From Pararhizobium capsulatum DSM 1112 (lineage in GTDB: Bacteria; Pseudomonadota; Alphaproteobacteria; Rhizobiales; Rhizobiaceae), in contig NZ_JAUSVF010000001.1 of the NCBI RefSeq assembly GCF_030814475.1, positions 3,230,001 to 3,294,000 of the forward strand: a stretch of DNA of 64,000 nucleotides, in the 5' to 3' direction. The notes below the pieces were generated by a model. It searched no databases and was not told where the DNA came from. It saw only the letters and a list, made by a program, of their open reading frames with translations. The position numbers and the translations under genes were made by a program. Shown in pieces: positions 21,455 to 38,738 of this stretch. Every line of letters starts with the position of its first letter. Positions within the stretch are counted from its first letter, which is position 1.

Positions 21455-21468
21455 TGAATGAACGTTCA
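21455..21468. promoter_or_regulatory. TetR-type operator, site 1 of 3
   Basis: TGAATGAACGTTCA, 20 bp ahead of the Rieske oxygenase start. The same 14-bp pattern, TGAATG-NN-C-R-TTCA, recurs at 24457-24470 and 31035-31048, each in the promoter region of a transcription unit of this cluster. Confidence 0.7.
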
Positions 21469-21487
21469 GCAAAATAAGGGGCGACAA

Positions 21488-22687
21488 ATGAACGAGATGA
21501 TCCGTGATATCCGCATTCCCGAGAGCTGGGATCGGCGCGGCCTGCCCGGCTGGTGCTATCACAGCAACGCCCTGCTGGAGCTCGAAAAACAACATGTTTT
21601 CCGCGAATACTGGCAGATCGCCTGCCATGTCTCCGACATCCCCGAACCCGGCAATTACATCGCCATGGACGTGGTCGGCGAGCGGGCGCTGATCTTGCGC
21701 GGTCAGGACGGCAGCGTGCGCGGTTTCCACAACATCTGCCGCCATCGCGGCTCGCGGCTGGTGGCCGACGACAAAGGCACCTGCCGCAACGCGCTGGTCT
21801 GTCCTTTCCACGGCTGGGTCTACAATCTCGACGGCACGCTCAGGGGCGCCGCCCGCCCCCGCTCCTTCCCCCCGCTCGACAGGCAAGAGTTCGGCCTCGT
21901 GCCGCTGGAAACCGAAATCTGGATGGGCTTCGTCTTCATCCGCTTCGCCAAGGGTCCACAACCCTCCGTCGCCGAACAGATGCAACCCTTTGCCGAAGAG
22001 CTTGGTCAATACAGCACCGAAACCATGGTGCCTGCCGGTTCGATCTGGACCCAGATCTCGCCGGTCAACTGGAAGTCCGTGCGCGACGTCGACAACGAAG
22101 GCTATCATGTCGCCATGGCCCATCCGGCCCTGCAGGATCTCTACGGCTCGACCTACTACGACGAACCCTTCGTCGGCGGCCTCTGCCGCTCGTTTGCGAG
22201 CTACAATCCCCATGCCGGCCGCCGCTGGAGCGTGCGGAATTATGTGGCAGTCGCGCCGGAGGCGACGCATCTGCCGGAAAGCCTGCGCAAGGCCTGGATC
22301 TATTACGGCCTGTTCCCCAACGCCGTGATCGCCGTGACGCCTGAAACCGTGCAGTTCTATCAGGAATTCCCGCTCTCGACCGGCCAGACCCTGCTGCGTG
22401 GCGGCGTCTATCGCCACGCGGCGGAAACCCGCGCGCAACGCGCCGCCCGTTATCTCGCCTACCGCATCGACCGCGATACACAGGCAGAAGACGTGCAACT
22501 GACTGTCTGGTCCAACGAGGCGATGACCTCGAAGGCCTTCCACGGATTCTACCTGTCCGACTTGGAATACGGCGTGCGCACTCATCACAACCATCTGCGC
22601 GACGTGCTGCCGGTGATGACGCTCGATCAGGCACCGGACGAAGAACGGATCGGTGCGGTTAATGCTGAAATGCGGACGAAATGGTGA
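21488..22687 (+). CDS. Rieske non-heme iron oxygenase subunit of the TetR-regulated cluster
   Basis: A 399-residue oxygenase. The Rieske ligands are C84, H86, C105 and H108 (CRH, CPFH). The catalytic domain has NEGYHVAMAH, with E204 at the position of the CntA bridging glutamate and H207 and H212 as iron ligands. Like the first Rieske enzyme in the window it resembles quaternary-amine monooxygenases more than aromatic dioxygenases. I chose the ATG at 21488 because AAGGGG stands seven bases before it; an ATG at 21458 lies inside the operator. No ferredoxin or reductase gene is present nearby. It lies 292 bp from the convergent aminotransferase gene. The substrate is unknown. Confidence 0.82.
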   Translation: MNEMIRDIRIPESWDRRGLPGWCYHSNALLELEKQHVFREYWQIACHVSDIPEPGNYIAMDVVGERALILRGQDGSVRGFHNICRHRGSRLVADDKGTCRNALVCPFHGWVYNLDGTLRGAARPRSFPPLDRQEFGLVPLETEIWMGFVFIRFAKGPQPSVAEQMQPFAEELGQYSTETMVPAGSIWTQISPVNWKSVRDVDNEGYHVAMAHPALQDLYGSTYYDEPFVGGLCRSFASYNPHAGRRWSVRNYVAVAPEATHLPESLRKAWIYYGLFPNAVIAVTPETVQFYQEFPLSTGQTLLRGGVYRHAAETRAQRAARYLAYRIDRDTQAEDVQLTVWSNEAMTSKAFHGFYLSDLEYGVRTHHNHLRDVLPVMTLDQAPDEERIGAVNAEMRTKW

Positions 22688-22734
22688 GCACCCGGGGGCG
22701 CTCTGCTTCTTTGAGGGTTAGCAAAATGGCTTTC

Positions 22735-22811
22735 GTCATCCTCGGCCTTGAGCCGAGGATCCAAACCTGAAGCTGCGGCATGGATGGTCGGGTCGAGCCC
22801 GACCATGACGA
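22735..22811. repeat. Palindromic repeat of a third family (two-hairpin intergenic element)
   Basis: Two hairpins: CCTCGGCCTTGAGCCGAGG at 22740-22758 and a second of ATGGTCGGG with its inverted partner at 22784-22806, between the convergent Rieske and aminotransferase genes. Elements beginning GTCATCCTCGG and ending in a similar hairpin are widespread in alphaproteobacterial intergenic DNA. Nothing else is seen between 22688 and 22979. Confidence 0.65.
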
Positions 22812-22979
22812 CTGAGAGTTCGCCGTAACTATCATGTTAAATTCGCCCTCGGATCATCCTGCCCTTGACTGATGAAACAGCCGGCAATCTCTCCACCAAG
22901 AAGAGAGGGCCGGTCGCCCGGCCCTCAGGTCCGGATGCGACCAGGGAACTGGATCGCATCCATTTTCAGAAACGCTACC

Positions 22980-24389
22980 TCAACCTTTCCACAATCCCTC
23001 ACGCACCAGTTCGTCCATGGTGCGGCGGATGCTGGTGTGGAGGATGTCGGTCATCGTGTCGATCTGCGGCCGCTCGATCGTCAGCGGCGGTGACATAACG
23101 CACATATTGATCAATGGCCGCACCAGAAGCCCCAGTTCCTGGCAATGGGCGTCGATGCGCTTGCCGACTTCCAGATCGAGCGTCAGCGGATTGTTGCTGA
23201 CCCGGTCGGCGACGCATTCGATGCAGGCCATCAGCCCAAGCCCGCGGACTTCACCAACCAGCGGCAACTCCTCCAGCCGTTTCAGGCTCGATTGGAAATA
23301 GTCAGAGACGTCGCGTGCATGGGCGAGCAAACCGCCTTCGAGGATATCGAGGTTCTTCAGGGCAACCGCGCAGCCGATCGGATGGCTGGAATAGGTCAAA
23401 CCATGGGCAAACATCGCCTCGGAGTGATTGGACCGGCGCAAATCCTCCAAAAGCTGCGCCGAAATCATGACGCCACCAAGCGGGAAATAACCCGACGTCA
23501 CACCCTTGGCGAAGGTGATCATGTCCGGCTCGATGCCAAACACCTCCTGCGAGGCGAAGACGGAGCCAAGACGCCCGAAAGCCGTCACCACCTCGTCGGC
23601 GATGAAGAGAATATCGTTTTCGCTGCAAAGCGCCCGCATGCGGCTGAGGTAGCCATACGGCGGCACGATGACGCCGCCGGAAGCCATGACCGGCTCGGCG
23701 ATGAAGGCGCCGATTCGCTCCGCTCCACGGTTGGCGATGACATCGCGGAATTCCTCGACCAGCATGTCGCAGAACTGTGCCTCATCCATGCCTGCCGGAC
23801 GGCGAAAAGGATTGGGACAAGTAAGCTTGATCACCTGATCGCTGGCGCTGTCCATCCAGTCGTGATCGCGCGGGCGGCCGTTGAGCGAGGCGGAGAGATA
23901 GGTCGAGCCGTGATAGCCGCCCTGACGGGAGACGATCAGCTTTTTCTCCGGCCGCCCGCGCACATTGTTGGCGAACTGCATGAAGCGCAGCGCCGTCTCG
24001 ACAGCCGAGGAACCGCCGGTGGTGTAGAAGACATGAGAGAGATCGCCCGGCGCATGGCCGGCAAGCCGGGCCGAGAGCGTCACTGACGGCTCGTTCATCG
24101 TGTACCACGGCGAATTGTAGGAAAGCTCCATCGCCTGTTCGTAGAGCACGTCAGCCAGCTCCTTGCGCCGATGCCCGGCATTGACGCACCACATGCCGGC
24201 CGGGCCATCGATCAGCTTGCGCCCCTCGCCGTCGATCACGTAGATGCCCTCACCGGACCGAATGCCGCCGCGCGCTTCGGCACCGATCTCGCCCGCCACC
24301 GGCCAGGGCTGAACCAGATGCTGACGCGCAAGCGCCGTCATCTCACCTTGCGCCAAAACCTCTGCCGCCTCTTCCCGCTTCGCCGCCAT
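22980..24389 (-). CDS. Class III aminotransferase (omega-amino acid/diamine:pyruvate type)
   Basis: A 469-residue PLP enzyme. The segment TFAKGVTSGY carries the PLP lysine; IADEVVTAFGRLG and GGSSAVETALRF are family signatures, and the N-terminal GMWCVNAGHRRKEL loop is typical of omega-aminotransferases acting on beta-alanine, putrescine, taurine or similar. The start at 24389 (MAAKREE) follows GGAGG at eight bases; the ATG at 24404 would consume that site. Operator site 2 lies 68 bp upstream, so it belongs to the TetR regulon. The amine donor is not known. Confidence 0.87.
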   Translation of the reverse strand: MAAKREEAAEVLAQGEMTALARQHLVQPWPVAGEIGAEARGGIRSGEGIYVIDGEGRKLIDGPAGMWCVNAGHRRKELADVLYEQAMELSYNSPWYTMNEPSVTLSARLAGHAPGDLSHVFYTTGGSSAVETALRFMQFANNVRGRPEKKLIVSRQGGYHGSTYLSASLNGRPRDHDWMDSASDQVIKLTCPNPFRRPAGMDEAQFCDMLVEEFRDVIANRGAERIGAFIAEPVMASGGVIVPPYGYLSRMRALCSENDILFIADEVVTAFGRLGSVFASQEVFGIEPDMITFAKGVTSGYFPLGGVMISAQLLEDLRRSNHSEAMFAHGLTYSSHPIGCAVALKNLDILEGGLLAHARDVSDYFQSSLKRLEELPLVGEVRGLGLMACIECVADRVSNNPLTLDLEVGKRIDAHCQELGLLVRPLINMCVMSPPLTIERPQIDTMTDILHTSIRRTMDELVREGLWKG

Positions 24390-24456
24390 GAAAACGACCT
24401 CCATTAAATATAAAACGGCACAATCAACTGATTATTTGTATAAAATTTCATTATTC

Positions 24457-24470
24457 TGAATGTCCGTTCA
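24457..24470. promoter_or_regulatory. TetR-type operator, site 2 of 3
   Basis: TGAATGTCCGTTCA, in an AT-rich stretch between the aminotransferase (minus) and the ABC permease-ATPase genes (plus). It could control both directions. Confidence 0.7.
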
Positions 24471-24647
24471 ATCAATATTGACAGAAAAAACACTTGCTTT
24501 CAATCCGGTTTTGCGCACATTCTGTGAAACGGGAACAAAACGGGCAAACAACGCCCATGGGTGGATGGCATGGAACAAAGCCTGCTTTTCGACTGTCGAA
24601 GCACGCTTGATGCGAACTGGATCATGAGTCGCGAGGATGCGGCGACC

Positions 24648-24777
24648 TCCCTCTTCTCCCCGGCGGGGAGAAGGTGGCGGAGAGCGCCGGATGAGGGGGC
24701 GACTGGCTCGGAATTCGCGGCGAAGCCCCCCTCATCTGCCCTGCAAGCATCTTCTCCCCGCTGGGGAGAAGAGGGAG
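24648..24777. repeat. RIME-like palindromic mosaic element (copy 4)
   Basis: A full-length element, TCCCTCTTCTCCCCGGCGGG at the left and CTTCTCCCCGCTGGGGAGAA at the right, with the GGCGGAGAGCGCCGGAT linker. It lies 50 bp before the first permease gene and after operator site 2. An 89-codon frame (24561-24830) runs through it and ends overlapping the permease start; I treat this as an effect of the element being free of stops. Confidence 0.85.
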
Positions 24778-24826
24778 CCAGCCTCGTCTCAACAGGCTAC
24801 ACCTTCGCCAATGCAAGGTGCCGCCT

Positions 24827-25741
24827 ATGACGGCGCTCCCGGCATCGACGATCGCAGAGCCCGATGGCCCGGCCCGCGCGCGCTGGGCGGACAGCGACGA
24901 AGCCAAGGGGCTGATGCTGGTCTCGCCCACTTTACTATACGCGCTTGCCCTGCTCCTGCTGCCGATCCTGATCGTCTTCGCCTACAGTTTCTGGTCCCAG
25001 GACTACCTGACGATCGACCGGACCTTCACGCTGGCCAACTACCGCACCGCGCTGGGCGAGCCGATCTACCAGGACCTGCTCTGGCGCTCGCTGACCATCT
25101 CGCTTGTCGTCAGCGTGATCACCGTCACGGTCTCCTACCCCATCGCCTGGTTCATCTCCTTCCATGGCGGCATTCACAAGAACCTCTGGCTGTTCCTGAT
25201 CACCGTGCCCTGCTGGACGAGCTATCTGCTGCGCGTGATGTCGTGGAAGGTGATCCTCGGCTATCAGGGCGTCCTCAACACCGGCCTGATGTCGACCGGG
25301 CTGATCGACAAGCCGGTGACCTCGCTGCTCTATAATTCCAATGCCGTCGTCATCACGCTGGTCCATAGCTGGGCGGCCTTCGCCATCCTGCCGATCTTCG
25401 TGTCGCTGGAAAAGATCGACCGCTCGCTGATCGAGGCCGCACACGATCTTGGCGACAACAAGTTCCGAAGCTTCCTGCGCGTCACCCTGCCGCTGTCGCT
25501 GCCCGGCGTCATCTCCGCCTTCCTGATCGTGATAATCCCGACGGTCGGCGATTATGTGACGCCGAAGCTCGTTGGCGGCAAGGACGGGGTGATGATCGCA
25601 ACCGCCATTCAGGCCCAGTTCGGCAAGGGAGCCAACTGGCCGCTAGGTGCCGCCCTTTCCGTCACGACGATGGTGATCGTCTCGGCCATGGCCGGCGCTG
25701 TGGTGCTGGCGCTCAAATTTTTCGTGAGGCGCATTCGATGA
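24827..25741 (+). CDS. ABC transporter permease of the TetR-regulated cluster (PotB-like)
   Basis: A 304-residue inner-membrane permease with about six helices; the first is LYALALLLLPILIVFAYSF and the EAA loop is LIEAAHDLGDNKFRSFLRV. AAGG stands eight bases before the ATG at 24827; a GTG at 24818 is the alternative. It starts a permease-permease-ATPase run whose substrate-binding protein lies 3.3 kb away on the other strand (29052-30125). Its stop overlaps the next start (ATGA). Confidence 0.87.
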   Translation: MTALPASTIAEPDGPARARWADSDEAKGLMLVSPTLLYALALLLLPILIVFAYSFWSQDYLTIDRTFTLANYRTALGEPIYQDLLWRSLTISLVVSVITVTVSYPIAWFISFHGGIHKNLWLFLITVPCWTSYLLRVMSWKVILGYQGVLNTGLMSTGLIDKPVTSLLYNSNAVVITLVHSWAAFAILPIFVSLEKIDRSLIEAAHDLGDNKFRSFLRVTLPLSLPGVISAFLIVIIPTVGDYVTPKLVGGKDGVMIATAIQAQFGKGANWPLGAALSVTTMVIVSAMAGAVVLALKFFVRRIR

Positions 25742-26547
25742 GCGGACGTCACGGCATCGCAAAATCCCGATGGCTGCCGGCCTATGTCGGCCTGTATCTG
25801 GCGTTCCTCTATCTGCCGATCCTGCTGCTGCCGATCTTCTCCTTCAACAATGCGGCAGCCACCACCTTCCCGCTCGCGGGCTTCACGCTCAAATGGTACG
25901 CCTCGCTGTGGAGCAACACGGTGATGCTGGAGGCGGCGCGCAACAGCCTGTTCGTGGGCGTTTGTGTTGCCATACTGTCTACCAGCCTCGGCATCTGCGC
26001 CGCCCGCGCAATCACCCGCTACCGGTTTCGCGGACGCGAGGCGGCAAATGGCCTCTTGATGGCGCCGCTGTTCCTGCCGGAAATCATCGTCGCCGTATCG
26101 CTGCTGATGATCATCCTGCAGATCGGCATCGAACTGTCGCTGGCCACCGTCATCTTCGGCCAGACCGTCTTCTGCCTGCCCTATGCGATGTCGGTGCTGA
26201 CCTCCGGCTTCGAAGGTTTTGACAGAAGCCTTGAGGAAGCTTCGCTCGACCTCGGCGAAACCGCCTTCGGCACCTTTCGCCGGGTGACGCTGCCGGTGGT
26301 AGCTCCTGCCATCGTCTCCAGCCTGCTCGTCTCCTTCACGATTTCGCTGGACGAGTTCATCCTTGCCTTCTTCCTCTCGGGCACCGAGCCGACGCTTCCG
26401 GTCTATATCTGGGGCCAGCTGCGCTTTGCCGCCAAGCTGCCGGGCGTGCTGGCGCTCGGTAGCATCATGATCGCGCTTTCCATTACGCTTTTGACGGTGG
26501 CCGAAATCATTCGCCGCCGCGCCGAGCGTCGCATCCAAGGAGCATAG
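25738..26547 (+). CDS. ABC transporter permease of the TetR-regulated cluster (PotC-like)
   Basis: A 269-residue permease with about six membrane helices (YVGLYLAFLYLPILLLPIFSF first) and the EAA loop LEEASLDLGETAFGTFRRV. It overlaps the upstream permease by four bases and is followed by the ATPase after four. It is the second half of the channel of an amine-type importer. Confidence 0.87.
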   Translation: MSGRHGIAKSRWLPAYVGLYLAFLYLPILLLPIFSFNNAAATTFPLAGFTLKWYASLWSNTVMLEAARNSLFVGVCVAILSTSLGICAARAITRYRFRGREAANGLLMAPLFLPEIIVAVSLLMIILQIGIELSLATVIFGQTVFCLPYAMSVLTSGFEGFDRSLEEASLDLGETAFGTFRRVTLPVVAPAIVSSLLVSFTISLDEFILAFFLSGTEPTLPVYIWGQLRFAAKLPGVLALGSIMIALSITLLTVAEIIRRRAERRIQGA

Positions 26548-26551
26548 GCCC

Positions 26552-27634
26552 ATGGCTGAAATGATCTCGATCCGCTCCGTCAGCCGCAACTACGGCATCT
26601 ACAAAGCTCTCGACGAGGTCTCGCTGGATATCGGCGCGGGCGAATTCTTCTCGCTTCTCGGCCCCTCCGGTTGCGGCAAGACTACCCTGCTGCGCTCGAT
26701 CGCCGGCTTCGACACACCGACATCAGGCGATATCCGCATCGATGGCCACTCCGTGATCGGCACACCACCGAACCGGCGCCCCACCAACATGGTTTTCCAG
26801 AACTACGCGATCTTCCCGCATCTGAACGTCGAGGAAAACGTCGCCTACGGCTTGAAGCGGTTGAAGCTCGATGCTTCCGAAGAGCGCCGCCGGGTCGGCG
26901 ATGCGCTCGATCAGGTCCGGCTCGGCGCGCTCGGCAAACGTGGGGCGAACGAGCTTTCCGGCGGTCAGCGGCAGCGCGTGGCGCTGGCGCGTGCGCTTGT
27001 GATGCGGCCGAAGGTGCTGCTGCTGGACGAACCCCTCTCGGCGCTCGACAAGAAGCTGCGCGAGGAAATGCAGGTCGAGCTTCGCTCGCTGCAGAAGGCG
27101 GTCGGCATCACTTTCATCCTCGTCACGCACGATCAGTATGAAGCGCTCGGCCTCTCCGACCGTATCGCCGTGATGTTCGGCGGACGTATCGCGCAGGTGG
27201 CAACGCCCAAGGATATCTATCAGCATCCGCTGACCCGCGAAGTCGCCGATTTCCTCGGAGGCATGAACTTCATGAAGGCTCGCATCACGGGCGAAAGCGC
27301 CGGTGAACTTTCCGTCGAAACCCAGCGCTTCGGCAGCGTCCGGGTCGCCAAGCCGCTCGGCTTTGCCGCCCGCGACGGCCACGCCACCCTCGGCATCCGC
27401 CCGGAGCGGCTGCGCGTTCTATGGGACGACACCAATGCCAATCATTCCCTGCAGGGACAGGTGGTCGACCGGCATTATTTTGGCGAAATCACCCACCTGA
27501 TCGTCGACGTGCCCGGCATGGAAAAGCCGCTCTCGGTCTCGGAAACCAACAATTTCGGCGCCGATGATATTCCGGTCGGCGCGCCGATCCGGCTGGCTTA
27601 CGATCCAGATGCGCTGGTGGCGCTGCGCGGCTGA
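26552..27634 (+). CDS. ABC transporter ATP-binding protein of the TetR-regulated cluster (PotA-like)
   Basis: A 360-residue ATPase with Walker A GPSGCGKTT, Q-loop FQNYAIFPH, signature LSGGQRQRVALARAL, Walker B LLLDEPLSALD and H-loop VTHDQYE, followed by a TOBE domain (LGIRPERLRV). It energises the two permeases before it. The last 37 bases overlap the 3' end of the convergent amine oxidase gene, an unusually deep convergent overlap. Confidence 0.88.
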   Translation: MAEMISIRSVSRNYGIYKALDEVSLDIGAGEFFSLLGPSGCGKTTLLRSIAGFDTPTSGDIRIDGHSVIGTPPNRRPTNMVFQNYAIFPHLNVEENVAYGLKRLKLDASEERRRVGDALDQVRLGALGKRGANELSGGQRQRVALARALVMRPKVLLLDEPLSALDKKLREEMQVELRSLQKAVGITFILVTHDQYEALGLSDRIAVMFGGRIAQVATPKDIYQHPLTREVADFLGGMNFMKARITGESAGELSVETQRFGSVRVAKPLGFAARDGHATLGIRPERLRVLWDDTNANHSLQGQVVDRHYFGEITHLIVDVPGMEKPLSVSETNNFGADDIPVGAPIRLAYDPDALVALRG

Positions 27635-29055
27635 GTAATGATGCGCTGCGCCACCGCGCGTCCCGCCGTGATCGCGCCTTCGATATAGCCGGGAAAAAAC
27701 GGCGAGAGTTCCGAGCAGGCAAAGTGGATTGTCCCCGCGCCGCGCCTCAGGATATCTTCAGCGTCATAGGCCGCCATATCGAGGATGACGTCGCTATAGC
27801 CGCCGCCACTCCAGCGGTCGTCCGTCCAGTCCCGCAGGATGGTTTCCAGCGGCTTGCAGGCTTCCGGGCCAAGGGCGTCGGAAAGTCGCGAAAGCACGTT
27901 TTCAAGCACCGCAGCCTCGCTGTTTTCGGTGACGGCACCGCTTGCTCCCTCTTCTCCCCAGCGGGGAGAAGGTGCCCGAAGGGCGGATGAGGGGGCGGCT
28001 GGCTCTGAATTCGCGGCCCCCTCATCGCCTCGCATCCGCTCGGCACTTCTCCCCGCTGGGGAGAAGAGGGAATTTGCCGTTCCTTTTCCACCCCACTCAA
28101 CCGCCAGTGGCCCGCCGATGAAGACGACGAGCAGAGCATCATCACCACTGCTGATATCGCAGGCGAAAAGGCCCTTTACATCGCGCCACATCACCATGCC
28201 GCTCAGATCGTCATCCCGCCAAAAACGCCGATCATAACGGAAGCAAATCTTGATGACCGTGCCGCTCGCCCAGGCATCGAGAGCGGCCGAAACGTCAGAC
28301 GGAAGCCGCGGCGAGATCGAAATTCGCCGCGCCATCACCGGCGGCACCGCCAGAAGAACCTGTTCAGCATGGAACCTCTTGCCGCCCGCCTCGATGCTCA
28401 CGCCATCGGCCGCGACGGAAACCGCTTCCACCGGCGTAGACAGTAGCAACCGCTCTCCCAGATCGGCCGCCATCGCCTCGGCAAGCGAATGGGTGCTGCC
28501 CTCCAGATAATATTGCAGCTCCGAAACCGTCGTCTCCAACCGCCGGTCGTTGTCGATGTAATACCAGAGCGGCAATTCCTCAGCCGGCCGGCACCAGAGA
28601 CCATGGATCATTGCGCGGAAACCGGCCTTGGCATCGTCGGCCTCCGGCCGCCGGGCCAGCCAGTCCGCGACGGAAAGCCCGGCAATAACGGGATCACGCG
28701 GATCAATGGCATTGGCGCGGCCGCGCAATCCCTCCACGCCCTCGTGAAACCGAAACGCCTCGCGCTGCGGCAAGGCCGGCCGCAGAACAAGCTTTCCCTC
28801 GTCCGGTATCGACACCAGCGGCCGACCGTAGCGGCGCGCAAGCTCCATGACCGCAGGCATATCCTCGCTGATGAACTGGCCTCCGGCATCGATCCGCCGG
28901 CCATTGGCAAAATCCGCCGGCTCTACACGTCCGCCGGGACGATCACGCGCCTCGAGCACGAGAACGCGCAATCCCGCATCGATCAGCGCATGGGCGGCCG
29001 CGAGGCCGGAAAAACCGGCCCCGACAACCACAACATCGATATCGTCTGCGCTCAA
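27598..29055 (-). CDS. FAD-dependent amine oxidase carrying an in-frame RIME-like insertion
   Basis: A 485-residue flavin amine oxidase (monoamine oxidase-like). The N-terminal FAD motif is VVVVGAGFSGLAAA, followed by EARDRPGGRV; the C-terminal end has the usual HFACSELSPFFPGYIEGAITAGRAVA, which closes the FAD site. Residues about 328-371 (SLFSPAGR to RWGEEGAS) are encoded by a RIME-like repeat lying in frame between strands of the substrate domain. This segment is not part of the family, so activity is uncertain. The start overlaps the stop of the binding-protein gene by four bases. The likely role is oxidation of an amine brought in by the cluster transporter. Confidence 0.82.
   Translation of the reverse strand: MSADDIDVVVVGAGFSGLAAAHALIDAGLRVLVLEARDRPGGRVEPADFANGRRIDAGGQFISEDMPAVMELARRYGRPLVSIPDEGKLVLRPALPQREAFRFHEGVEGLRGRANAIDPRDPVIAGLSVADWLARRPEADDAKAGFRAMIHGLWCRPAEELPLWYYIDNDRRLETTVSELQYYLEGSTHSLAEAMAADLGERLLLSTPVEAVSVAADGVSIEAGGKRFHAEQVLLAVPPVMARRISISPRLPSDVSAALDAWASGTVIKICFRYDRRFWRDDDLSGMVMWRDVKGLFACDISSGDDALLVVFIGGPLAVEWGGKGTANSLFSPAGRSAERMRGDEGAANSEPAAPSSALRAPSPRWGEEGASGAVTENSEAAVLENVLSRLSDALGPEACKPLETILRDWTDDRWSGGGYSDVILDMAAYDAEDILRRGAGTIHFACSELSPFFPGYIEGAITAGRAVAQRIITQPRSATSASGS
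27946..28071. repeat. RIME-like element inserted inside the amine oxidase gene (copy 5)
   Basis: 126 bp, exactly 42 codons, from TCCCTCTTCTCCCCAGCGGG to GCTGGGGAGAAGAGGGA. It has the same architecture as copies 3, 4 and 8 but lies within a gene. It keeps the reading frame open on the minus strand. Confidence 0.85.
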
Positions 29056-30125
29056 TAGCCCGCCTTTATCTTCTCGAATTCAGCAATCATCTTCTGCCGC
29101 AATTCCGTCGGCATCGGTGACTGGAAGAGCGTGTTGCCGAGGAACTTGTCAACATCGGCATAGCCCTTGTCGGCAAGGATCGTCGGATCGACCGCCGCCA
29201 TGCCCTTGGCATTGGCATGGCCATAGCCCCAGTTTTCGACCATATAGGCGGAGATCGCGGGATCGGTGACGGCGTTCAGATAGGCATACTGCTTTTCCTC
29301 GCCGCCTTCCCCACCCTTCAGCCGCACATAGCCGCAAACCCAGGTGGACAGCCCTTCTGTCGTATCCTTCTTGATTGCAGCAGGAATGCCATCCGCTTGT
29401 AGCGTCGTCACCGTCTCGTTCCAGGCCCAGGCGAGATCGACTTCGCCGCTCGCCATCGCCTGGCTGACCTCGGTGTTGTCCGTCCAGTAAAGACGCACGT
29501 TCTTGTGCACCTCGCGCAGGAAGTCGGAGGCCGCCTTGAACTGCGCATCGGTCATCGTCGTCCAGTCCTTGACGCCGGTCGCAAGGCTTGCCAGCGCATA
29601 GGCATCATCGACATTGTCGCCGATGGAAACGCGGTCCTTGAATTTCGGATCGGCAAAGGCCTTGAGCGAGGTGATCTCCTCCGGCTTCACTGTGTCGGTG
29701 CGATAGGTCAGAACCGTGTTGCCCCACTCAAAGGGAAGCAGCCACGCGGTTCCGTCCTCGGAGGTCATCAGGCCCTTCATGCCGGCGATGCCCGGCAGGA
29801 TATCCTTCCAGGCATTCAGCTTCGACGTATCCAGGGGCTCCAGCATGCCGGCGTCGCGCCACTTGGCGACACTCTGCGAACAGGGATGAGCAAGATCGGC
29901 CTTGAAGCCGGAGCGCAGCTTCTGGAACGCCTCTTCCTCGTCGCCGAAGAAGGCGAAATCCGGCTCGACGCCGTATTTTTCCGTATAGGCGGGGTGGAAG
30001 GCCGGGTCTTCATAACCCGACCAGTCGAAGACGGTGATGTTGTCCGCCGCGAATGCCGCGCTGCTTGCAAGGGAGGCGAGCAAGGCCGCCAGAAGGGTCC
30101 GTCCGATAAGTCTCTTTGCCGTCAT
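29052..30125 (-). CDS. Polyamine-type ABC substrate-binding protein of the TetR-regulated cluster
   Basis: A 357-residue PotD-like periplasmic protein with a signal peptide in residues 1-26 (cleavage after AAFA). The mature start ITVFDWSGYEDPAF, the phrase AWLLPFEWGNTVLTYRTD and the WTDN segment are typical of polyamine or opine binders. It is encoded between the TetR gene and the amine oxidase on the minus strand, apart from its presumed permeases and ATPase (24827-27634). Ligand unknown, probably a cationic amine. Confidence 0.86.
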   Translation of the reverse strand: MTAKRLIGRTLLAALLASLASSAAFAADNITVFDWSGYEDPAFHPAYTEKYGVEPDFAFFGDEEEAFQKLRSGFKADLAHPCSQSVAKWRDAGMLEPLDTSKLNAWKDILPGIAGMKGLMTSEDGTAWLLPFEWGNTVLTYRTDTVKPEEITSLKAFADPKFKDRVSIGDNVDDAYALASLATGVKDWTTMTDAQFKAASDFLREVHKNVRLYWTDNTEVSQAMASGEVDLAWAWNETVTTLQADGIPAAIKKDTTEGLSTWVCGYVRLKGGEGGEEKQYAYLNAVTDPAISAYMVENWGYGHANAKGMAAVDPTILADKGYADVDKFLGNTLFQSPMPTELRQKMIAEFEKIKAGY

Positions 30126-30152
30126 GCCATTCTCCCTCTTTTTGTCGGGCCG

Positions 30153-30860
30153 CTATTTTTTCGGCCCCTCGTAGGTCATGTGTTTCGGGAAGGCCGAAAC
30201 CAGATGTTCGATCGCCGCCGCGTGGGCTTTCTCACGGGTCAACCCGTCACCCATCATCAGCCGCAGCCACAGGCCCTCCATCATCGCGCAAAGCGCCAGC
30301 GCCATGCCCTCCGGCTCATAGCCGTAGCCGGCCTCGGCCTTCAGGTCGGAGCAGAGGCTGACGAAGGTTTCCTGATACTTGACGTCACGCGCGCCGCAGA
30401 GCGCCTGATAGGTCGGCCGCGATTTCGCCTCGCCCCAGAAGGCGCACCAAGCCGCGAGCTTGCGCTTCGTGCAGATTTTCCGGTCAAAATCGGCCGCGAC
30501 CAGCGCCCAGAGCTTTGAAGCAGCCGCCGCATCGGCCTTCTCATAGGCCGCATTCCAGTGGGCGGCGTATTCGTCGGCCATGAACTGCAGCGTGGCGATG
30601 AGCAGGTTTTCCTTGCTCTCGAAATGGAAGTTGACGATGCCGCGCGATAGGCCGGCTCCGTCAGCGACGTCCGCAAGCGTGGTTTCAGCATAACCGCGCT
30701 TGGCGAGCGAATCGATCGTCGCTTCCACGAGCTGCTGGCGGCGGGTTTCCTTGGACGCCTTGCGTCCACGCCGATCGGCGTCGGTCGTTTCGGATGCAAC
30801 CGCACCCGTCTTCACTTTCAATGCCATCGATCTGCCCTTGAGGCCGAGACGCAGGCTCAT
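30153..30860 (-). CDS. TetR-family regulator, BetI-like
   Basis: A 235-residue repressor. The helix-turn-helix region reads TTLADVADGAGLSRGIVNFHFESKENLL, and the rest resembles the ligand-binding domain of BetI, the choline-responsive repressor. A start at 30827 (MALKVK) is also possible; both have acceptable ribosome sites. It heads the minus-strand unit TetR-SBP-amine oxidase, and operator site 3 lies 175 bp upstream, shared with the divergent oxidoreductase genes, so it is probably autoregulated. The inducer is likely a cluster substrate. Confidence 0.87.
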   Translation of the reverse strand: MSLRLGLKGRSMALKVKTGAVASETTDADRRGRKASKETRRQQLVEATIDSLAKRGYAETTLADVADGAGLSRGIVNFHFESKENLLIATLQFMADEYAAHWNAAYEKADAAAASKLWALVAADFDRKICTKRKLAAWCAFWGEAKSRPTYQALCGARDVKYQETFVSLCSDLKAEAGYGYEPEGMALALCAMMEGLWLRLMMGDGLTREKAHAAAIEHLVSAFPKHMTYEGPKK

Positions 30861-31034
30861 GAGGCCGCTCCCGCCGGTTTTTCACCGCGCAGATGAGTGG
30901 GACAATGCTCGCCGCTGTCAAGAACCTTGCGTCCCGTCTCGATCATGAAATCTCCAGCTTTTCCATCCTGCCTCGCCCTGCCGGGATGACAAGAGAAATC
31001 CTATCGCATAATCAGGCAATTGCAACATACTTGC

Positions 31035-31048
31035 TGAATGATCATTCA
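31035..31048. promoter_or_regulatory. TetR-type operator, site 3 of 3
   Basis: TGAATGATCATTCA, a perfect 14-bp palindrome between the divergent TetR gene and the FAD oxidoreductase gene, 61 bp ahead of the latter. It is the most symmetric of the three sites. Confidence 0.75.
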
Positions 31049-31108
31049 ATATATCTGGACAACATTCTGCTTTTCATGTCAGTTTTCTCGTCAACAAGGG
31101 GAGACAGC

Positions 31109-32728
31109 ATGAAAAAATACGACGTTGTCATGATCGGCGGCGGACACAACGGGCTCGTTGCGGCCTGCTATCTCCAGCGCGCCGGGCTCGATGTGATCGT
31201 GCTGGAAAAGAACGACTGGGTGGGTGGCGCCGCCACCAGCCGCGAGCTGACGCCCGGCTATCTTTATTCCAACTGTTCCTACGTCTGTTCGCTGTTCCGG
31301 CCCGAGATCATGCGCGATCTGGAATTGCCGAAACACGGGCTGCAGATCATCGCCTATGAGGGCGGCGCAGTCTTCACCCGCGACGGCGATTATCTCGCCT
31401 CCTACCGCGATCACGACAGCCACCGCCGCGAATTCGCCCGCTATTCCAAGCGTGATGCGGAAGCCTATGAGCGCTACGCCCGCGATGTCACCCGCCAGTG
31501 CCGCTTCATCCAGCCGCTACTGATGCGCACCGCGCCCGATCCTTTCGGTTTTCGCCCGCGCGATATCTCCGAACTGCTTTATCTCGGCAAGAAATTCGGC
31601 GAATTCAGCCCGCATGAGATGGCTGAGACCCTGCGCTTCTGGACCATGTCGATCTCCGACTTTCTCGACGAATATTTCGAGACCGACGTGATCAAGGCCT
31701 ATCTGGCGCTCTCCGGCATCATCGGCACCGCGCTCGGGCCGATGTCGCCCGGCACGGCCTATGTGCTGCTGCATCACTATATGGGCGAAGTGGACGGCTC
31801 TGTCGGCGCCTGGGGCTATGCACGCGGCGGCATGGGCGCGGTGACACAGGCGCTCGCCAGTTCCTTCAAGGCCTCCGGCGGCACGATCCGCACCGGGGCC
31901 GATGTGGACAAGGTGATGACGCGTGGCGGCAAAGCCTCCGGCGTCGTTCTGGTTGACGGCGAGGAAGTGCGCGGAAAACTCGTCGTCTCCAATGCCGACG
32001 TGAAACGCACCTTCCTGAAGCTGGTCGACGAGGATGCCCTGCCGGAGGATTTCGTCCACCGGGTCAAGCACTTCAAGATGCGCGGCTCCTCCGGCAAGCT
32101 CAACATTGCGCTCGACAGCCTGCCCGAGTTCCCTGCCCTGCCCGACAGTTCCTCCTGCATTCGCGGCGACATGCACTTCACGGACTCGATCGAGCGCATG
32201 GAGCGCGCCTATGACGACTGGAAGGACGGGCGCTGGTCGGCCGATCCCTTCGTCGACATGGTGATCCCGACGACGCTCGACCCGACCATGGCTTCGCCCG
32301 GAAAACATTTCATGAGCTGCTTCGTGCAATACTGTCCGCCCAAGGTCGAGGGTCGCGACTGGACGGATGCCGACCGCGACGCCTTTGCCGAAACGGTCGT
32401 CAGCCAAATCGCCGAATATTCGCCGGGCTTCCGCGACCGGATCGTGCACATGGAAGTGCGCACCCCGCGCGAGATCGAAAACGAGGTGGGCCTGACGGAG
32501 GGCAACATCTTCCAGGGCGAACTCACCTTCGACCAGCTGCTCTTCAACCGGCCGGTGCCCGGCTATGCGCAATATCGAAGCCCGATCGATGGCCTTTATA
32601 TGTGCGGCTCCTCGACCCATCCGGGAGGCGGGGTCATGGGCGCCCCCGGCCGCAACGCCGCCGCCGAAATCCTGCGCGACCTGAAACGACCCAACGAGTT
32701 GATGAGCAAAGCCCATGACGTCATTTGA
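31109..32728 (+). CDS. Phytoene desaturase-fold FAD oxidoreductase 1
   Basis: A 539-residue NAD(P)/FAD-dependent oxidoreductase. FAD binding is seen at VVMIGGGHNGLVAACYL and EKNDWVGGAATS, and the C-terminal flavin loop is GLYMCGSSTHPGGGVMGAPGRNAA. The family includes carotenoid desaturases and retinol saturases, but in catabolic clusters the substrate is usually not known. I set the start at 31109 behind AAGGGGAGAC; the frame is open to 30893, through the operator. It overlaps the next gene, a related enzyme, by 14 bases; the pair may work as a complex or in successive steps. Confidence 0.83.
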   Translation: MKKYDVVMIGGGHNGLVAACYLQRAGLDVIVLEKNDWVGGAATSRELTPGYLYSNCSYVCSLFRPEIMRDLELPKHGLQIIAYEGGAVFTRDGDYLASYRDHDSHRREFARYSKRDAEAYERYARDVTRQCRFIQPLLMRTAPDPFGFRPRDISELLYLGKKFGEFSPHEMAETLRFWTMSISDFLDEYFETDVIKAYLALSGIIGTALGPMSPGTAYVLLHHYMGEVDGSVGAWGYARGGMGAVTQALASSFKASGGTIRTGADVDKVMTRGGKASGVVLVDGEEVRGKLVVSNADVKRTFLKLVDEDALPEDFVHRVKHFKMRGSSGKLNIALDSLPEFPALPDSSSCIRGDMHFTDSIERMERAYDDWKDGRWSADPFVDMVIPTTLDPTMASPGKHFMSCFVQYCPPKVEGRDWTDADRDAFAETVVSQIAEYSPGFRDRIVHMEVRTPREIENEVGLTEGNIFQGELTFDQLLFNRPVPGYAQYRSPIDGLYMCGSSTHPGGGVMGAPGRNAAAEILRDLKRPNELMSKAHDVI

Positions 32729-34295
32729 TCCCGCCTCGAAGGCCTACGATGCCATCGTCATCGGCGCCGGCCACAACGGCCTTGCCGCCGCCGCCAAGCT
32801 CGGCGCCAGCGGCCGCAAGGTGCTGGTGCTGGAAGCCGCAAACGAACCCGGCGGCGCCACGCGCGGCCGCGAATTCGCCCCCGGCTTCCGCTCCGCCGGC
32901 CTCGCCCACCTGATCAACCGGCTCGACCCGGATGTCGCCCGCGATCTCGGCATCTCGCTTGTCGCAAAACCGGGCTCCGCCATGCCCACGGCCATCCTCG
33001 ACGGCGACAGGCAGCCGGTCGTCCTGCACGGCGCCTATGGCGAGACGATCGACGGCGTCACACCTGAAGAAGCCACCGCCTTCAACCGCATGCGCGACAA
33101 GCTGATCTTCCAGGCAGGCATTCTCAAGCGCTTCCTGCGCCGCGCGCCGCCGCAACTCGGGGCCATCGGCATGGCCGATCTCGCCAGCTTCGCCTCCGCC
33201 GGCTTCTGCCTGATCCGCAAGGGTCGCAGCGAAGGCCGCGATTTCCTGCGCATGCTGCTGATGAACGTCGCCGATGTCGCCGACGAATACCTGACCGACG
33301 ACCGGCTGAAGGCGCTCGTCGCCTTCGACGCGACGCTCGGCATCCACCTTGGCCCGCGCTCGCCGACCTCCCTGCTCGGCCTCTACTATCGCCTGACCGG
33401 CGAAGTCGCCGGTCGGACCGGCGGCCAGTTCATTCCCGAGGGCGGCATGGCTGCCGTTGCTCCTGCCTTCGTCAAGGCTGCGGAAAAGGTGGGGGTAACC
33501 ATCCGCTGCGGCACGCGCGTCGGCCGCATCCTTGCCGATCGCGGCAGGGCATCCGGCGTGGTGCTGACCGACGGCGCGGAGATCGCCGCCCCCGTCATCG
33601 TTGCCGCCGTGCATCCGCAGACGGCATTCCTCCAGCTCGTCGATCCCGCCGAAAGCAGCACCGGCTTCGTACGCTCGCTCAAGAACCTGCGCACATCCGG
33701 CAATGTCGCCAAGCTCGACCTTGCGCTGGACCGTGCACCAAATTTCCTCAACCTGCGCTCATCCGACCATTCCGGCCGGATCGTGCTTGCCCGCTCGATG
33801 GAGCATGTGGAGCGCGCCTTCAACCCGGCGAAATATGGCGAATTCTCCACCGATCCGGTGATGGAGATCGTGCTGCCGAGCCTTGCCGATGGCTCGCTCG
33901 CCCCTTCCGGCGCCTGCACCCTTTCGGCCCTTGTGCAATATGCGCCGCACAAGCTGAAAATGGGCTGGGAGGCCGGCAAGCCGCTTTTCCTGAAGATTAT
34001 CCTCGACATCCTGGAACGGCATGCACCGGGCATATCAAAGTCAATCGTTGCAGCGGAGCTCCGCACGCCCGCCGATATCGAAGCGGAATACAATCTGCCC
34101 GGCGGCCATTGGCATCACGGCGAGTTGCAGGCCGATCAACTGCTGATCAACCGGCCGACCGGTGCCGCCTCCGGCTATAAGACGCCGATCGAGGGGCTTT
34201 ATCTCGCCAGTGCCGGCGCGCATCCGGGCGGCGGAATTTCCGGCCTGCCCGGCTGGAACGCGGCACGCCACATTCTTTCGGGAGCACGGTCATGA
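32715..34295 (+). CDS. Phytoene desaturase-fold FAD oxidoreductase 2
   Basis: A 526-residue relative of the preceding protein: FAD motif AIVIGAGHNGLAAAAKL, then EAANEPGGATRG, and the C-terminal GLYLASAGAHPGGGISGLPGWNAAR. The middle parts differ clearly, so this is an old duplication. The ATG lies within the end of the upstream gene, and its own stop overlaps the GcvT-like start by four bases, making a tightly coupled three-gene unit. Confidence 0.83.
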   Translation: MTSFDPASKAYDAIVIGAGHNGLAAAAKLGASGRKVLVLEAANEPGGATRGREFAPGFRSAGLAHLINRLDPDVARDLGISLVAKPGSAMPTAILDGDRQPVVLHGAYGETIDGVTPEEATAFNRMRDKLIFQAGILKRFLRRAPPQLGAIGMADLASFASAGFCLIRKGRSEGRDFLRMLLMNVADVADEYLTDDRLKALVAFDATLGIHLGPRSPTSLLGLYYRLTGEVAGRTGGQFIPEGGMAAVAPAFVKAAEKVGVTIRCGTRVGRILADRGRASGVVLTDGAEIAAPVIVAAVHPQTAFLQLVDPAESSTGFVRSLKNLRTSGNVAKLDLALDRAPNFLNLRSSDHSGRIVLARSMEHVERAFNPAKYGEFSTDPVMEIVLPSLADGSLAPSGACTLSALVQYAPHKLKMGWEAGKPLFLKIILDILERHAPGISKSIVAAELRTPADIEAEYNLPGGHWHHGELQADQLLINRPTGAASGYKTPIEGLYLASAGAHPGGGISGLPGWNAARHILSGARS

Positions 34296-35530
34296 ATGCG
34301 ATGACATCACCTCTGAACGCAACCGACGGCCGCCGGGCCGCCCGCAGTCACATCCATACGCCACGGCTCGAAACACCGTTCCATCCACGTTTAGCCGCGC
34401 TCAGCGAAACCAGCGACTGGTACAGCTGGGCCGGCTACAAGGCGCCGCATACGCTGTTCGACGAGGAACTCGAATATTTCGCGATCCGCTCCACGTCCGC
34501 GCTCTTCGATATCTCGCCCATGGTGAAATACCGCATCGCCGGGCCGGATGCGGAACGCTATCTCAACCGCCTGACGCTGCGCGATGTACGGAAGCTCGGC
34601 ATCAACCGGGTGCACTACACCGCCTGGTGCGACGATCACGGCCATGTACTGGATGACGGCACGCTGTTCCGGCTCGGGGAAAACACGTTTCGTCTCTGCT
34701 GCCAGGAGCGGCATCTGCCGTGGCTGCTCGACAGCGCCTTCGGCTTCTCCGTTGACATCCACGAGGAAACGGAAGAAATCGCCGGACTTGCACTGCAGGG
34801 GCCAACCAGTTGCTCCACACTACTTGCTGCCGGCTTTTCCGGCGTCGAGCGGCTGAAGCCTTTCGATATCGCGAGCGTCCCGCATGAGACGGGAACGGTC
34901 ACCATCTCCCGCACCGGCTTCACCGGCGATCTCGGCTACGAGATTTTCGTGCCCCGCGCGCTGGCCCTGTCTCTTTGGGATCGGCTGTGGCAGGCGGGTC
35001 AGCCGCATGGCATCCGGGCGATCGGTTACGCCGCGCTCAACACGGCACGCATCGAGGCGGGCTTCATCGTTGCCAATACCGATTTCATCACGGCCGAAGG
35101 TGCACTCCGGGCCGACCGGGTTCGCATGCCGGATGAAGTGGGTCTCGACTGGCTCGTCGATGCCGACAAGCCCAGTTTCAACGGACGTAAAGCGATACTT
35201 GAAGCACGGCGGAATCAAACTCTGAAGCACATCCTCGTCGGCCTTGAAATCGAAGGGAATATTCCGGCCGAACACGCGCTGGTCTATCACGGAAAGAAGC
35301 GCGAAGCCGGCCTCGTGACGGCCGCGATCTGGTCGCCGACCGCCAAGCGCAACATCGCCATTGCGACGCTGGACCGCCCCTACGGCGTCAAGTTCACCGA
35401 CGATCTCTGGGTGGAAATCTATGCCCTGCGGGAGCTGCGATACCAGAAGATGATGAAGCGTGCCCGCATCGTGCCCCGCCCCTTCGTCAAGCTCGCCCGC
35501 CGCACGACGACCCCGCCGGGCAGTTTCTGA
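34292..35530 (+). CDS. Stand-alone GcvT-like aminomethyltransferase (folate-dependent demethylase)
   Basis: A 412-residue protein with the GcvT N-domain (LFDISPMVKYRIAGPDAERYLNRL, then SRTGFTGDLGYEIFVP) and the C-terminal barrel (HILVGLEIEGNIPAEHALVYH). These bind tetrahydrofolate and accept one-carbon units. No glycine-cleavage partners (GcvP, GcvH) are present, so it is more likely a demethylase or methylene acceptor for the oxidoreductases before it than part of the glycine cleavage system. Coupled by ATGA to the oxidoreductase gene. Confidence 0.84.
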   Translation: MNAMTSPLNATDGRRAARSHIHTPRLETPFHPRLAALSETSDWYSWAGYKAPHTLFDEELEYFAIRSTSALFDISPMVKYRIAGPDAERYLNRLTLRDVRKLGINRVHYTAWCDDHGHVLDDGTLFRLGENTFRLCCQERHLPWLLDSAFGFSVDIHEETEEIAGLALQGPTSCSTLLAAGFSGVERLKPFDIASVPHETGTVTISRTGFTGDLGYEIFVPRALALSLWDRLWQAGQPHGIRAIGYAALNTARIEAGFIVANTDFITAEGALRADRVRMPDEVGLDWLVDADKPSFNGRKAILEARRNQTLKHILVGLEIEGNIPAEHALVYHGKKREAGLVTAAIWSPTAKRNIAIATLDRPYGVKFTDDLWVEIYALRELRYQKMMKRARIVPRPFVKLARRTTTPPGSF

Positions 35531-35537
35531 CGCTCCC

Positions 35538-35801
35538 ATGGACGAGGGAGCACGCGAGAACTGGGCACTGATCCACACGCCCCCCGGCATCGAATGGTCC
35601 GGCCGCGCCCGCTATGCGGCGGCCATGTATTTCTTCCAGAAGGGCGAGATGGCAGCCGACGTGCTGGAGGTCTACCGCATCTGTTCGCGGCTCGATGGGG
35701 AGGATCCGCTGGATGTGCTGTGGCGATGGCGGATCGGGGCGGAGTGGGTTGAGCGGATGGAACGAGTTCGTCGCGAGATACCCCCCTCTGTCACTTCGTG
35801 A
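35538..35801 (+). CDS. 87-residue protein of unknown function downstream of the GcvT-like gene
   Basis: It starts seven bases after the GcvT-like stop. The core is acidic and aromatic: ENWALIHTPPGIEWSGRAR, a likely helix YAAAMYFFQKGEMAADVLEVYRIC (given in parts: YAAAMYFF, then QKGEMAADVLEVYRIC), and LDVLWRWRIGAEW. The last seven or so residues and the stop codon come from a palindromic repeat, so the original C-terminus may have been lost. I do not recognise the family. Position suggests an accessory subunit of the oxidoreductase/GcvT unit. Confidence 0.65.
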   Translation: MDEGARENWALIHTPPGIEWSGRARYAAAMYFFQKGEMAADVLEVYRICSRLDGEDPLDVLWRWRIGAEWVERMERVRREIPPSVTS

Positions 35802-35983: not shown

Positions 35984-36715
35984 TCACTCCGGCGCAAACA
36001 CACTCATCGCTCCCGTATAATTCTTCGGCAGCGGCGAGGCATAAGACCCACGCTTGCTGGTGGTCAGTTTTTGAGCGATCAGCGCCTCCGCCTGTTTGAT
36101 AGCAGCCGAAACACCATCGATGACCGGGACATGATAAGCCTGCTGCAGTGCATAGGCGAGATCGGCCATGCCGGCGCAGCCGAGGACGATCGCCTCGGCA
36201 CCGTCTTCCTCCAGCGCCCGCTCGATCTGCCGGCGTAGCTTGTCGAGAGCGCCGGAGCCTTCATCCTCGAGCTCCAACACCGGAATATCGGCAGCGCGTA
36301 CCTTCACCCGATGGCCGAGGCCGTAGCGAGCGGCGAGGTCCTCGATCAGCACGCGTGAACGCTCCAGCGTCGTCACCACGGTAAAGCGTTGCGCCAGAAA
36401 ACCGGCCGTCACCAACGCACTCTCGCAGATGCCAACGATAGGTATACCGGCCATGGCGCGGGCGGCGTCGAGGCCGGTGTCATCGAAGCAGGCGATAATG
36501 GCCGCCTGCGCGCCCGCCGCCTCCCCCTTGCGGATTTCATCGAGCAGGCCGGGCAGCGCCAGCGCGCCGTCGTAATGCCCCTCGATGGATGCCGGTCCCA
36601 TGAGCGATGTCGCCGCCTCGATTTCGGTCATGGGACCGGCGACCGCGCGCGCTGCCACGGCGGCCTTTTCTGTCATTGAGCGGGTCGTGTTCGGATTGAC
36701 GAGAAGAATGCGCAT
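35984..36715 (-). CDS. Hydantoin/Asp-Glu racemase family enzyme
   Basis: A 243-residue protein with MRILLVNPNTTRSMTEKA at the start, the family signature, and the two catalytic cysteines in IACFDDTGL and LGCAGMADL. Members racemise hydantoins or allantoin, or isomerise amino acids and maleate. It follows a GntR-regulated ABC transporter on the same strand, after a large hairpin, so it may process the imported compound. The exact substrate is not readable. The ribosome site is weak and overlapped by a short inverted repeat. Confidence 0.82.
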   Translation of the reverse strand: MRILLVNPNTTRSMTEKAAVAARAVAGPMTEIEAATSLMGPASIEGHYDGALALPGLLDEIRKGEAAGAQAAIIACFDDTGLDAARAMAGIPIVGICESALVTAGFLAQRFTVVTTLERSRVLIEDLAARYGLGHRVKVRAADIPVLELEDEGSGALDKLRRQIERALEEDGAEAIVLGCAGMADLAYALQQAYHVPVIDGVSAAIKQAEALIAQKLTTSKRGSYASPLPKNYTGAMSVFAPE

Positions 36716-36718
36716 GAA

Positions 36719-36736
36719 ACTCTCTAGAGTTTGGCA
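36719..36736. promoter_or_regulatory. Small dyad over the racemase ribosome binding region
   Basis: AAACTCTCTAGAGTTT sits 3-18 bases ahead of the racemase start. The words CAAACTCTAGAG seen on either strand here also end the large hairpin 80 bp upstream, so the two could pair or be bound by one regulator. Confidence 0.4.
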
Positions 36737-36779
36737 GGTGGAAACCGGTTATCCCGAAAAGACAAACGGAAAAGAAATG

Positions 36780-36816
36780 AGAGTTTGTCTGGTTCAGAAT
36801 GAACCTGACAAACTCT
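36780..36816 (-). terminator. Large hairpin at end of ABC transporter operon
   Basis: Arms of 17 bp (AGAGTTTGTCTGGTTCA and its near-perfect inverse, one mismatch) around GAA. It begins at the permease stop codon. On the minus strand the next bases are CATTTCTTTTCCGTTTGTC, T-rich but not a clean run, so it may be a partial terminator or an mRNA-stabilising hairpin between transporter and racemase. Confidence 0.6.
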
Positions 36817-37636
36817 AGAGGAGCCGGGCTTGGCGGCGGCGCAGATAGTAGATCGTGCCGAGCGTGCCCAGGATGATGGAGAAGGAGAAGAGCGTCGTCA
36901 CCGTGCCCAGCGCATAAAGCACCGGCGTCGTGACGTTGGTGGTCATGCCGTAGATTTCCAGCGGCAGGGTATTGTAGGTGCCGGACGTCATCAGCGTGCG
37001 GGCGAACTCGTCATAGGACAGCGTAAAGCCGAACAGGCCGACACCGACAAGGCTCGGCGCAATCATCGGCAGGAGCACATGACGGAATGTCTGCCAGGAG
37101 GTGGCGCCGAGATCACGAGCGGCTTCCTCATAGGCCGGCGAGAACCGGTTGAAGACGGCAAACATGATCAGCACGCCGAAGGGCAGCGTCCAGGTGAGAT
37201 GCGCGCCGAAAGCGGAGGAATACCAGGCCGGCTTCAGGCCGAGTTGCTGGAAGACGACGCCGATGCCGAGCGAGATGATGATCGAGGGCACCACGAGACT
37301 TGCGACCGAAAGATAGAACAGCACGGTTGCGCCGCGGAACTTGCGGCGGAAGGCAAGCCCGGCCAGCAGCGCCACCACGACGTTGACGATCATCACCATC
37401 AGGCCGAGCGTGAAGGAACGCTTGAACGAAGCGCCGAAATCGCCCACCGCCTGCTGTTCGAACAGGTTGAAGAACCAGTGCACGGAAACGCCATTCAGCG
37501 GGAAGGTCAGGCCGCCATCCGGTCCCTGGAAGGAGAGGATGAAGACGGCAGACAGTGGGCCGTAGAGGAACAGCACGAAGAGCGTGAAGAACGCCGCCAG
37601 CACGTAGAATTCGATGGTTCGTTTCTCGTGGGACAT
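36815..37636 (-). CDS. ABC transporter permease (PotC-like), GntR-controlled transporter
   Basis: A 273-residue permease with about six helices (FYVLAAFFTLFVLFLYG first) and the EAA loop YEEAARDLGATSWQTFRHV. It is the last transporter gene of the ATPase-SBP-permease-permease operon. The stop codon is part of a large hairpin. Confidence 0.86.
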   Translation of the reverse strand: MSHEKRTIEFYVLAAFFTLFVLFLYGPLSAVFILSFQGPDGGLTFPLNGVSVHWFFNLFEQQAVGDFGASFKRSFTLGLMVMIVNVVVALLAGLAFRRKFRGATVLFYLSVASLVVPSIIISLGIGVVFQQLGLKPAWYSSAFGAHLTWTLPFGVLIMFAVFNRFSPAYEEAARDLGATSWQTFRHVLLPMIAPSLVGVGLFGFTLSYDEFARTLMTSGTYNTLPLEIYGMTTNVTTPVLYALGTVTTLFSFSIILGTLGTIYYLRRRQARLL

Positions 37637-37640
37637 GGCC

Positions 37641-38730: not shown

Positions 38731-38738
38731 TGATTTCC

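Follow-up and report, generated by a model that had tools for sequence, protein, structure and literature searches.

The closest described counterparts of the regulatory system considered here are the BetI regulons, which are governed by choline-responsive TetR repressors. In the accessible part of the report on Ruegeria pomeroyi, such a regulon has a local regulator and short palindromes in divergent promoter regions, and the BetI1 box reads ATTGACG*CGTCAAT (PMC12442346). For the genes under control, the nearest known systems are the carnitine monooxygenase CntA with the group V Rieske oxygenases, the folate-dependent demethylases (folate domain of trimethylamine N-oxide (TMAO) demethylase, dimethylglycine oxidase, GcvT) and the spermidine/putrescine importer PotABCD. 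Relatives of all of these lie together at positions 21,455 to 35,801 of a 64,000-nucleotide stretch of Pararhizobium capsulatum DSM 1112 (contig NZ_JAUSVF010000001.1, positions 3,230,001 to 3,294,000), hereafter the window, together with a TetR-family regulator (30153-30860, minus strand) and three 14-base-pair (bp) sites. The best explanation appears to be that this one local TetR and three TGAAYRNNYRTTCA promoter sites constitute a regulon of five units, a reading to which we give a probability of about 0.83. Like BetI, the regulator contains TetR_N (46.5 bits versus a Pfam cut-off of 24) and a BetI-type C-terminal domain. Unlike BetI, it stays below both BetI cut-offs (118.6 of 201.3 bits for TIGR03384 and 110.8 of 118 bits for PRK00767), a true BetI is encoded elsewhere in the genome, no bet genes are found among the units presumably regulated here, and the operator is another one, differing in letters and spacing from the box given in the accessible text (PMC12442346). 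The bet box itself matches the window once with three mismatches, at 62019, never with fewer and nowhere in the cluster. Judged by its sequence, the regulator is BetI-like and not BetI.

Operator 1 (TGAATGAACGTTCA, 21455-21468) stands upstream of the Rieske gene, operator 2 (TGAATGTCCGTTCA, 24457-24470) in the divide between the aminotransferase and the ATP-binding cassette (ABC) permease genes, and operator 3 (TGAATGATCATTCA, 31035-31048) in the divide between TetR and an oxidoreductase dependent on flavin adenine dinucleotide (FAD), FADox1. The sites are assigned to no strand and all match the pattern exactly. An earlier note on this DNA had placed them at these positions, each in the promoter region of a different unit, and the positions were confirmed to the base. 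The palindrome is perfect in site 3 alone, whereas the other two sites read TGAATG..CGTTCA with one asymmetric pair. Site 1 begins 33 bp ahead of the likely Rieske start at 21488, with an in-frame ATG at 21458 falling within it, site 2 is flanked by permease 1 (24818, plus strand) and by the aminotransferase, which starts at 24383 or 24404 on the minus strand, and site 3, which begins 74 bp ahead of the start of FADox1 (31109, plus strand), is separated by 175 bp from that of TetR (30860, minus strand). The pattern proposed in the earlier note, TGAATG-NN-C-R-TTCA, fits all three sites, but the consensus is better written TGAAYRNNYRTTCA, because in relatives most sites with one mismatch carry A instead of G as their sixth base or T instead of C as their ninth. 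In the window TGAAYRNNYRTTCA has exactly three matches, operators 1-3, versus a mean of 0.03 in 100 shuffles, none of which reached three. With up to three mismatches the earlier pattern gives 55 matches versus 81 expected, and since the enrichment is thereby lost, the exact sites alone carry the signal. Moreover, in the whole genome (6,477,857 bases, 7 contigs) TGAAYGNNCRTTCA occurs at three places, all of them operators 1-3, versus one for the reversed-pattern control, so that the many unrelated matches which the earlier note had named as an argument against a regulon did not appear. With one mismatch there are 32 places versus 18 for the control and these matches are therefore mostly background. 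TGAAYRNNYRTTCA occurs at six places in the genome (control 2); the three beyond operators 1-3 were set aside as operators since they fall within open reading frames, two of which, as read from their translations, look like an ABC permease gene and the gene of a Crp-like regulator.

The placement of the sites is kept in relatives. Contigs were scanned with the TetR protein and the best 80 of 236 relatives were retained, which are thus the nearer ones; these 80 TetR loci belong to genera such as Rhizobium, Shinella, Ensifer and Mesorhizobium, and a few are from Rhodobacteraceae. When the window proteins were used for annotation by tblastn, most loci proved to hold this gene set, in an unchanged or altered order, and a few only part of it (for example L047 and L061). 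For each gene the best pattern match in the 370 bases around the start was taken and counted if it had at most one mismatch; a gene was included only above an identity threshold and with its upstream stretch inside the locus, leaving 32 to 77 of the 80 loci for the cluster genes, 80 for TetR and 19 for a neighbouring vWA gene. By this count a site lies upstream of FADox1 in 77 of 77 loci, of the Rieske gene in all 46 orthologs, where it starts 29-34 bases ahead of the estimated start, of the aminotransferase in 67 of 68, of the first permease in 64 of 65 and of TetR in 21 of 80. The control genes gave none (second FAD-dependent oxidoreductase, FADox2, 0/77; GcvT-like gene 0/76; permease 2 0/66; ATPase 0/66; amine oxidase 0/32; binding protein 0/73; vWA gene 0/19), which for the six cluster controls together amounts to 0 of 390 upstream stretches, and random 370-base stretches of the loci, which may overlap true sites, contained a site in 195 of 4000 cases. 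The placement also holds where the gene order differs. Among 101 genomes of the family, 24 encode the TetR at E ≤ 1e-40, and strict sites number 57 in these versus 48 in the 77 others; of the 57, 42 are no more than 25 kb away from the TetR gene and are spread over 21 of the 24 genomes.

Furthermore, the presence of sites follows the recognition helix of the TetR protein, which in the window lies in the region GLSRGIVNFHF from residue 70. More distant loci were added for this comparison, giving 111 loci, 109 of them with a TetR homologue, and a relaxed site was looked for within 11 kb; the count takes the best homologue per locus and omits 8 of 117 TetR matches, which are second, weaker homologues (in L045, L046, L060, L062, L100, L116, L118 and L128). 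The helix SRGIVNF(H/Y)F is found in 97 loci, 92 of which have a site, versus 1 of 12 loci with other helices, and the reversed pattern was found in none of the helix-test loci. The Fisher value for this association, 1.3e-10, serves as a guide only as the loci are related. Two loci without any TetR match, L111 and L112, keep FADox1 and have no site. Likewise, no operator-type site is present in L085, L102 and L126, which combine an SHG helix with a Rieske ortholog (58-61% identity), nor in L086 and L113, whose helix is not SRG. In an exploratory search, TTTGAGCGCTCAAA was found in the TetR/FADox1 divide of L086 and L113 (helix SQGVAVFYF), and a TTGACT-N4-AGTCAA palindrome just upstream of TetR in the SHG loci L102, L103 and L129, with one mismatch in the latter two. 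The palindromes near these TetR genes lie at 11915-11928 and 20404-20419 in L086, 9142-9155 in L113, 9763-9778 in L102, 10359-10374 in L103 and 9577-9592 in L129; as the alternatives were first spotted in L102 and L086, only L103, L113 and L129 are real tests. That one TetR would act at all three sites is a strong inference, because the sites are kept in place across loci, are confined to the cluster in their own genome and track the helix. The single BetI-like regulator of the earlier note thus stands by placement, genome uniqueness and helix covariation, but it falls short of BetI by both cut-offs.

Several observations weigh against such a regulon. The loci are related and the counts drawn from them are not independent. 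The unit of TetR, binding protein and amine oxidase has site 3 as its nearest site, as far as 175 bp before TetR. Five loci have the SRG helix and no site (L047, L116, L117, L120 and L123); L123 is a contig of only 4 kb, but L116 holds FADox1 and L117 the aminotransferase and both count against the helix rule, as does L114, which has the other helix GMSSGIVNFHF and yet one site. The SHG loci L085 and L126 show neither palindrome type. In L084, from another member of the family, two strict sites (2438-2451 and 12266-12279), 10 kb apart, belong to a cluster with a different TetR and no amine genes, the genes being of acyl-CoA type as read from their translations; therefore the regulator cannot be told from the motif alone. 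In addition, a promoter scan did no better than on shuffled sequence (3 found, 2.1 expected from shuffles).

The regulon would comprise five transcription units, probably co-transcribed as suggested by spacing and strand, and TetR would bind as a dimer to the TGAAYRNNYRTTCA palindrome at three promoter regions. The first unit would be the Rieske non-heme iron oxygenase gene (21488-22687, plus strand) and the second that of a class III aminotransferase (22980-24383, minus strand), which exceeds the curated cut-off of the PRK07036 family (NF005447) with 696 versus 618 bits. The third would consist of permease 1 (24818-25741), permease 2 (25738-26547) and the ATPase (26552-27634), all on the plus strand and similar to PotB, PotC and PotA, respectively, though each below the corresponding cut-off. 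Also on the plus strand, the fourth would hold FADox1 (31109-32728), FADox2 (32715-34295) and the GcvT-like folate-binding enzyme (34292-35530). Both oxidoreductases are CrtO-like by profile and domain matches and remain below the 1000-bit cut-off of the CrtO beta-carotene ketolase NF045689 (310 and 198.9 bits); the idea that FADox1 is a PYROXD2 or methyllysine enzyme was not used as evidence. The fifth, on the minus strand, would contain TetR, a PotD-like periplasmic binding protein (29052-30125; profile match and PotD alignment) and a flavin amine oxidase (27598-29055), and in many relatives a methyltransferase in addition. Most likely TetR would repress these units until a substrate or intermediate releases it. 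The amine oxidase, recognised by domain and alignment comparison, carries in frame a copy of a palindromic repeat of about 130 bp (27940-28080); in each of the 32 homologous stretches compared, at least 30 residues are missing at this point. Relatives of this repeat are found at 24640-24788, 10859-10993, 61895-62025 and 51764-51837, and one copy sits between operator 2 and permease 1.

What the regulated genes do can be stated less firmly. In the PotD protein of the spermidine/putrescine importer the ligand-binding acids are E36, D168, E171 and D257, and the aromatic residues are W34, Y37, W229 and W255. The importer of the window resembles PotABCD in having two permeases, an ATPase and a PotD-like binding protein; unlike it, its subunits are below the equivalog cut-offs and three of the four ligand acids are replaced (E36 by G, D168 by N and D257 by C, with E171 changed to D), while the four aromatic residues are kept, in an alignment with positions counted by hand. 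Two binding-protein genes in tandem occur behind TetR in L066, L071, L074, L075, L078, L081, L082 and L083, mostly named Mesorhizobium. The Rieske protein has CntA as its nearest solved relative (129 bits) and a glutamate, Glu204, at the bridging position (E205 of CntA), which is present in 58 of 62 aligned Rieske sequences, the window included, namely those sharing the DNEGYH block. It differs from CntA in having Asp202 where Tyr203 stands, hence no aromatic residue at this position, and Gly205 and Val208 at the positions of the Cys206-Cys209 pair, as aligned with the deposited CntA chain, a C209A form. In CntA, according to the accessible parts of the reports, Y203 holds the quaternary ammonium group (PMC7948474) and C206 and C209 constitute a cysteine pair (PMC10952381). 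Another aromatic residue of the Rieske enzyme could serve a quaternary ammonium group. Its score for glycine betaine monooxygenase GbcA is below the cut-off (NF058607, 133.5 of 670 bits). In the Fuscovulum ytuae plasmid cluster of L085, two consecutive Rieske genes (16284-18634) accompany an SHG-helix TetR, with no site. The GcvT-like protein reaches the GCV_T domain cut-off and finds its best solved match in the TMAO demethylase folate domain (185 bits); from the folate-dependent demethylases it differs in being a stand-alone protein of 412 amino acids beside two CrtO-like flavoproteins and below every equivalog cut-off (PRK00389, 200.5 of 300; TIGR00528, 152.1 of 235.85; NF053776, 260 of 1100 bits). 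Taken together, the features of the binding protein, the Rieske protein and the GcvT-like protein point to a cationic amine that is not spermidine and is probably N-methylated. The most likely course would be that the transporter imports such an amine, that the Rieske and FAD enzymes oxidise its N-methyl groups, that the GcvT-like enzyme moves the one-carbon unit to tetrahydrofolate and that the aminotransferase takes off the amino group. The odds that the genes import and oxidatively N-demethylate a cationic amine in this manner, with methyl groups passed to folate and the amino group transaminated, appear about even.

Two findings weigh against this pathway. No reductase could be assigned to the Rieske enzyme, and 55 of the 80 loci have, behind site 3 and on the same strand as TetR, an intact gene for an S-adenosylmethionine (SAM) methyltransferase between FADox1 and TetR. 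It was not found in the other 25, three of which (L047, L055 and L061) gave no FADox1-TetR gap. In the window a remnant with its upstream region is left (30862-31034, minus strand), with about 720 bases deleted internally as compared to L004, and the other methyltransferases of the genome are all distant, the best at 38% over part of the protein. Among solved structures, phosphoethanolamine N-methyltransferases come nearest to the L017 methyltransferase; the methyltransferase of the relatives is not explained by plain demethylation. Alternatively, the sites may well be operators of this TetR and the substrate a polyamine-like or ring-containing amine, possibly of the homarine type, that is degraded by ring or side-chain oxidation. 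Transporter subunits nearest to PotABCD, an aminotransferase with omega-amine and polyamine relatives in the PDB, and a Rieske enzyme without the quaternary-ammonium tyrosine and the cysteine pair described for CntA in the accessible texts (PMC7948474, PMC10952381) would fit such a route, whereas the demethylase relationship of the GcvT-like protein and the replaced acids beside kept aromatic residues in the binding protein speak against it. This alternative seems quite possible, if somewhat short of an even chance.

A second alternative retains the operators and lets another TetR bind them, a true BetI or a second BetI-like protein, alone or jointly with the neighbouring TetR. Both proteins are encoded elsewhere in the genome, BetI above its cut-off with 237.4 bits and the BetI-like protein with 162.3 bits, and L084 shows the same motif class near a different TetR. 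However, the sites track the helix of the neighbouring TetR, both FADox1 loci that lack it (L111 and L112) lack the sites as well, and the BetI1 box of R. pomeroyi, in the accessible part of its description, differs in letters and spacing (PMC12442346) and has no match in the cluster, which makes binding by another TetR improbable. That the sites are palindromes due to chance, or conserved promoter elements lacking a regulator of their own, is hardly credible, for even though such palindromes number about 0.6 per genome where family members lack this TetR (48 in 77 genomes), three lie here within 10 kb and none elsewhere in the genome, they are kept at three promoter regions versus 0 of 390 control positions, and they covary with the recognition helix.

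Beyond the regulon of the window, a wider proposal joins two ideas and is advanced tentatively, the pair together seeming a little less probable than not. The TetR family may have changed its operator along with its helix, SRG going with TGAAYRNNYRTTCA, SQG with TTTGAGCGCTCAAA and SHG, in some of its loci, with TTGACT-N4-AGTCAA; and Rhizobiaceae, Mesorhizobium and some Rhodobacteraceae may possess an undescribed catabolic route in which a Rieske enzyme with the aspartate, a pair of CrtO-like flavoenzymes and a GcvT-like enzyme that stands alone remove the N-methyl groups of a cationic amine and hand them to folate. At 35984-41184 of the window, adjoining the GcvT-like gene, lies a further cluster for an ABC importer, which includes a racemase-like gene; orthologs of its genes accompany the gene cluster considered here in only a few loci (such as L004, L005, L007, L026, L027 and L057), and no operator site is found near them.

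A literature search for the regulon, the gene set or the motif gave no description among the matches listed, most subscription papers lying outside its coverage. As judged from sequence comparison, by which it is well supported, the local TetR regulon would be new and of a familiar kind. With it, a mixed gene block on both strands can be read as a single pathway open to testing, whose regulator is named and whose operator is unique in the genome. Moreover, the TetR protein could act as a sensor in the search for the compound that would enter many Alphaproteobacteria associated with plants and soil through this system, and changes in TetR specificity could be studied on the compact set of helix-operator pairs found across relatives.

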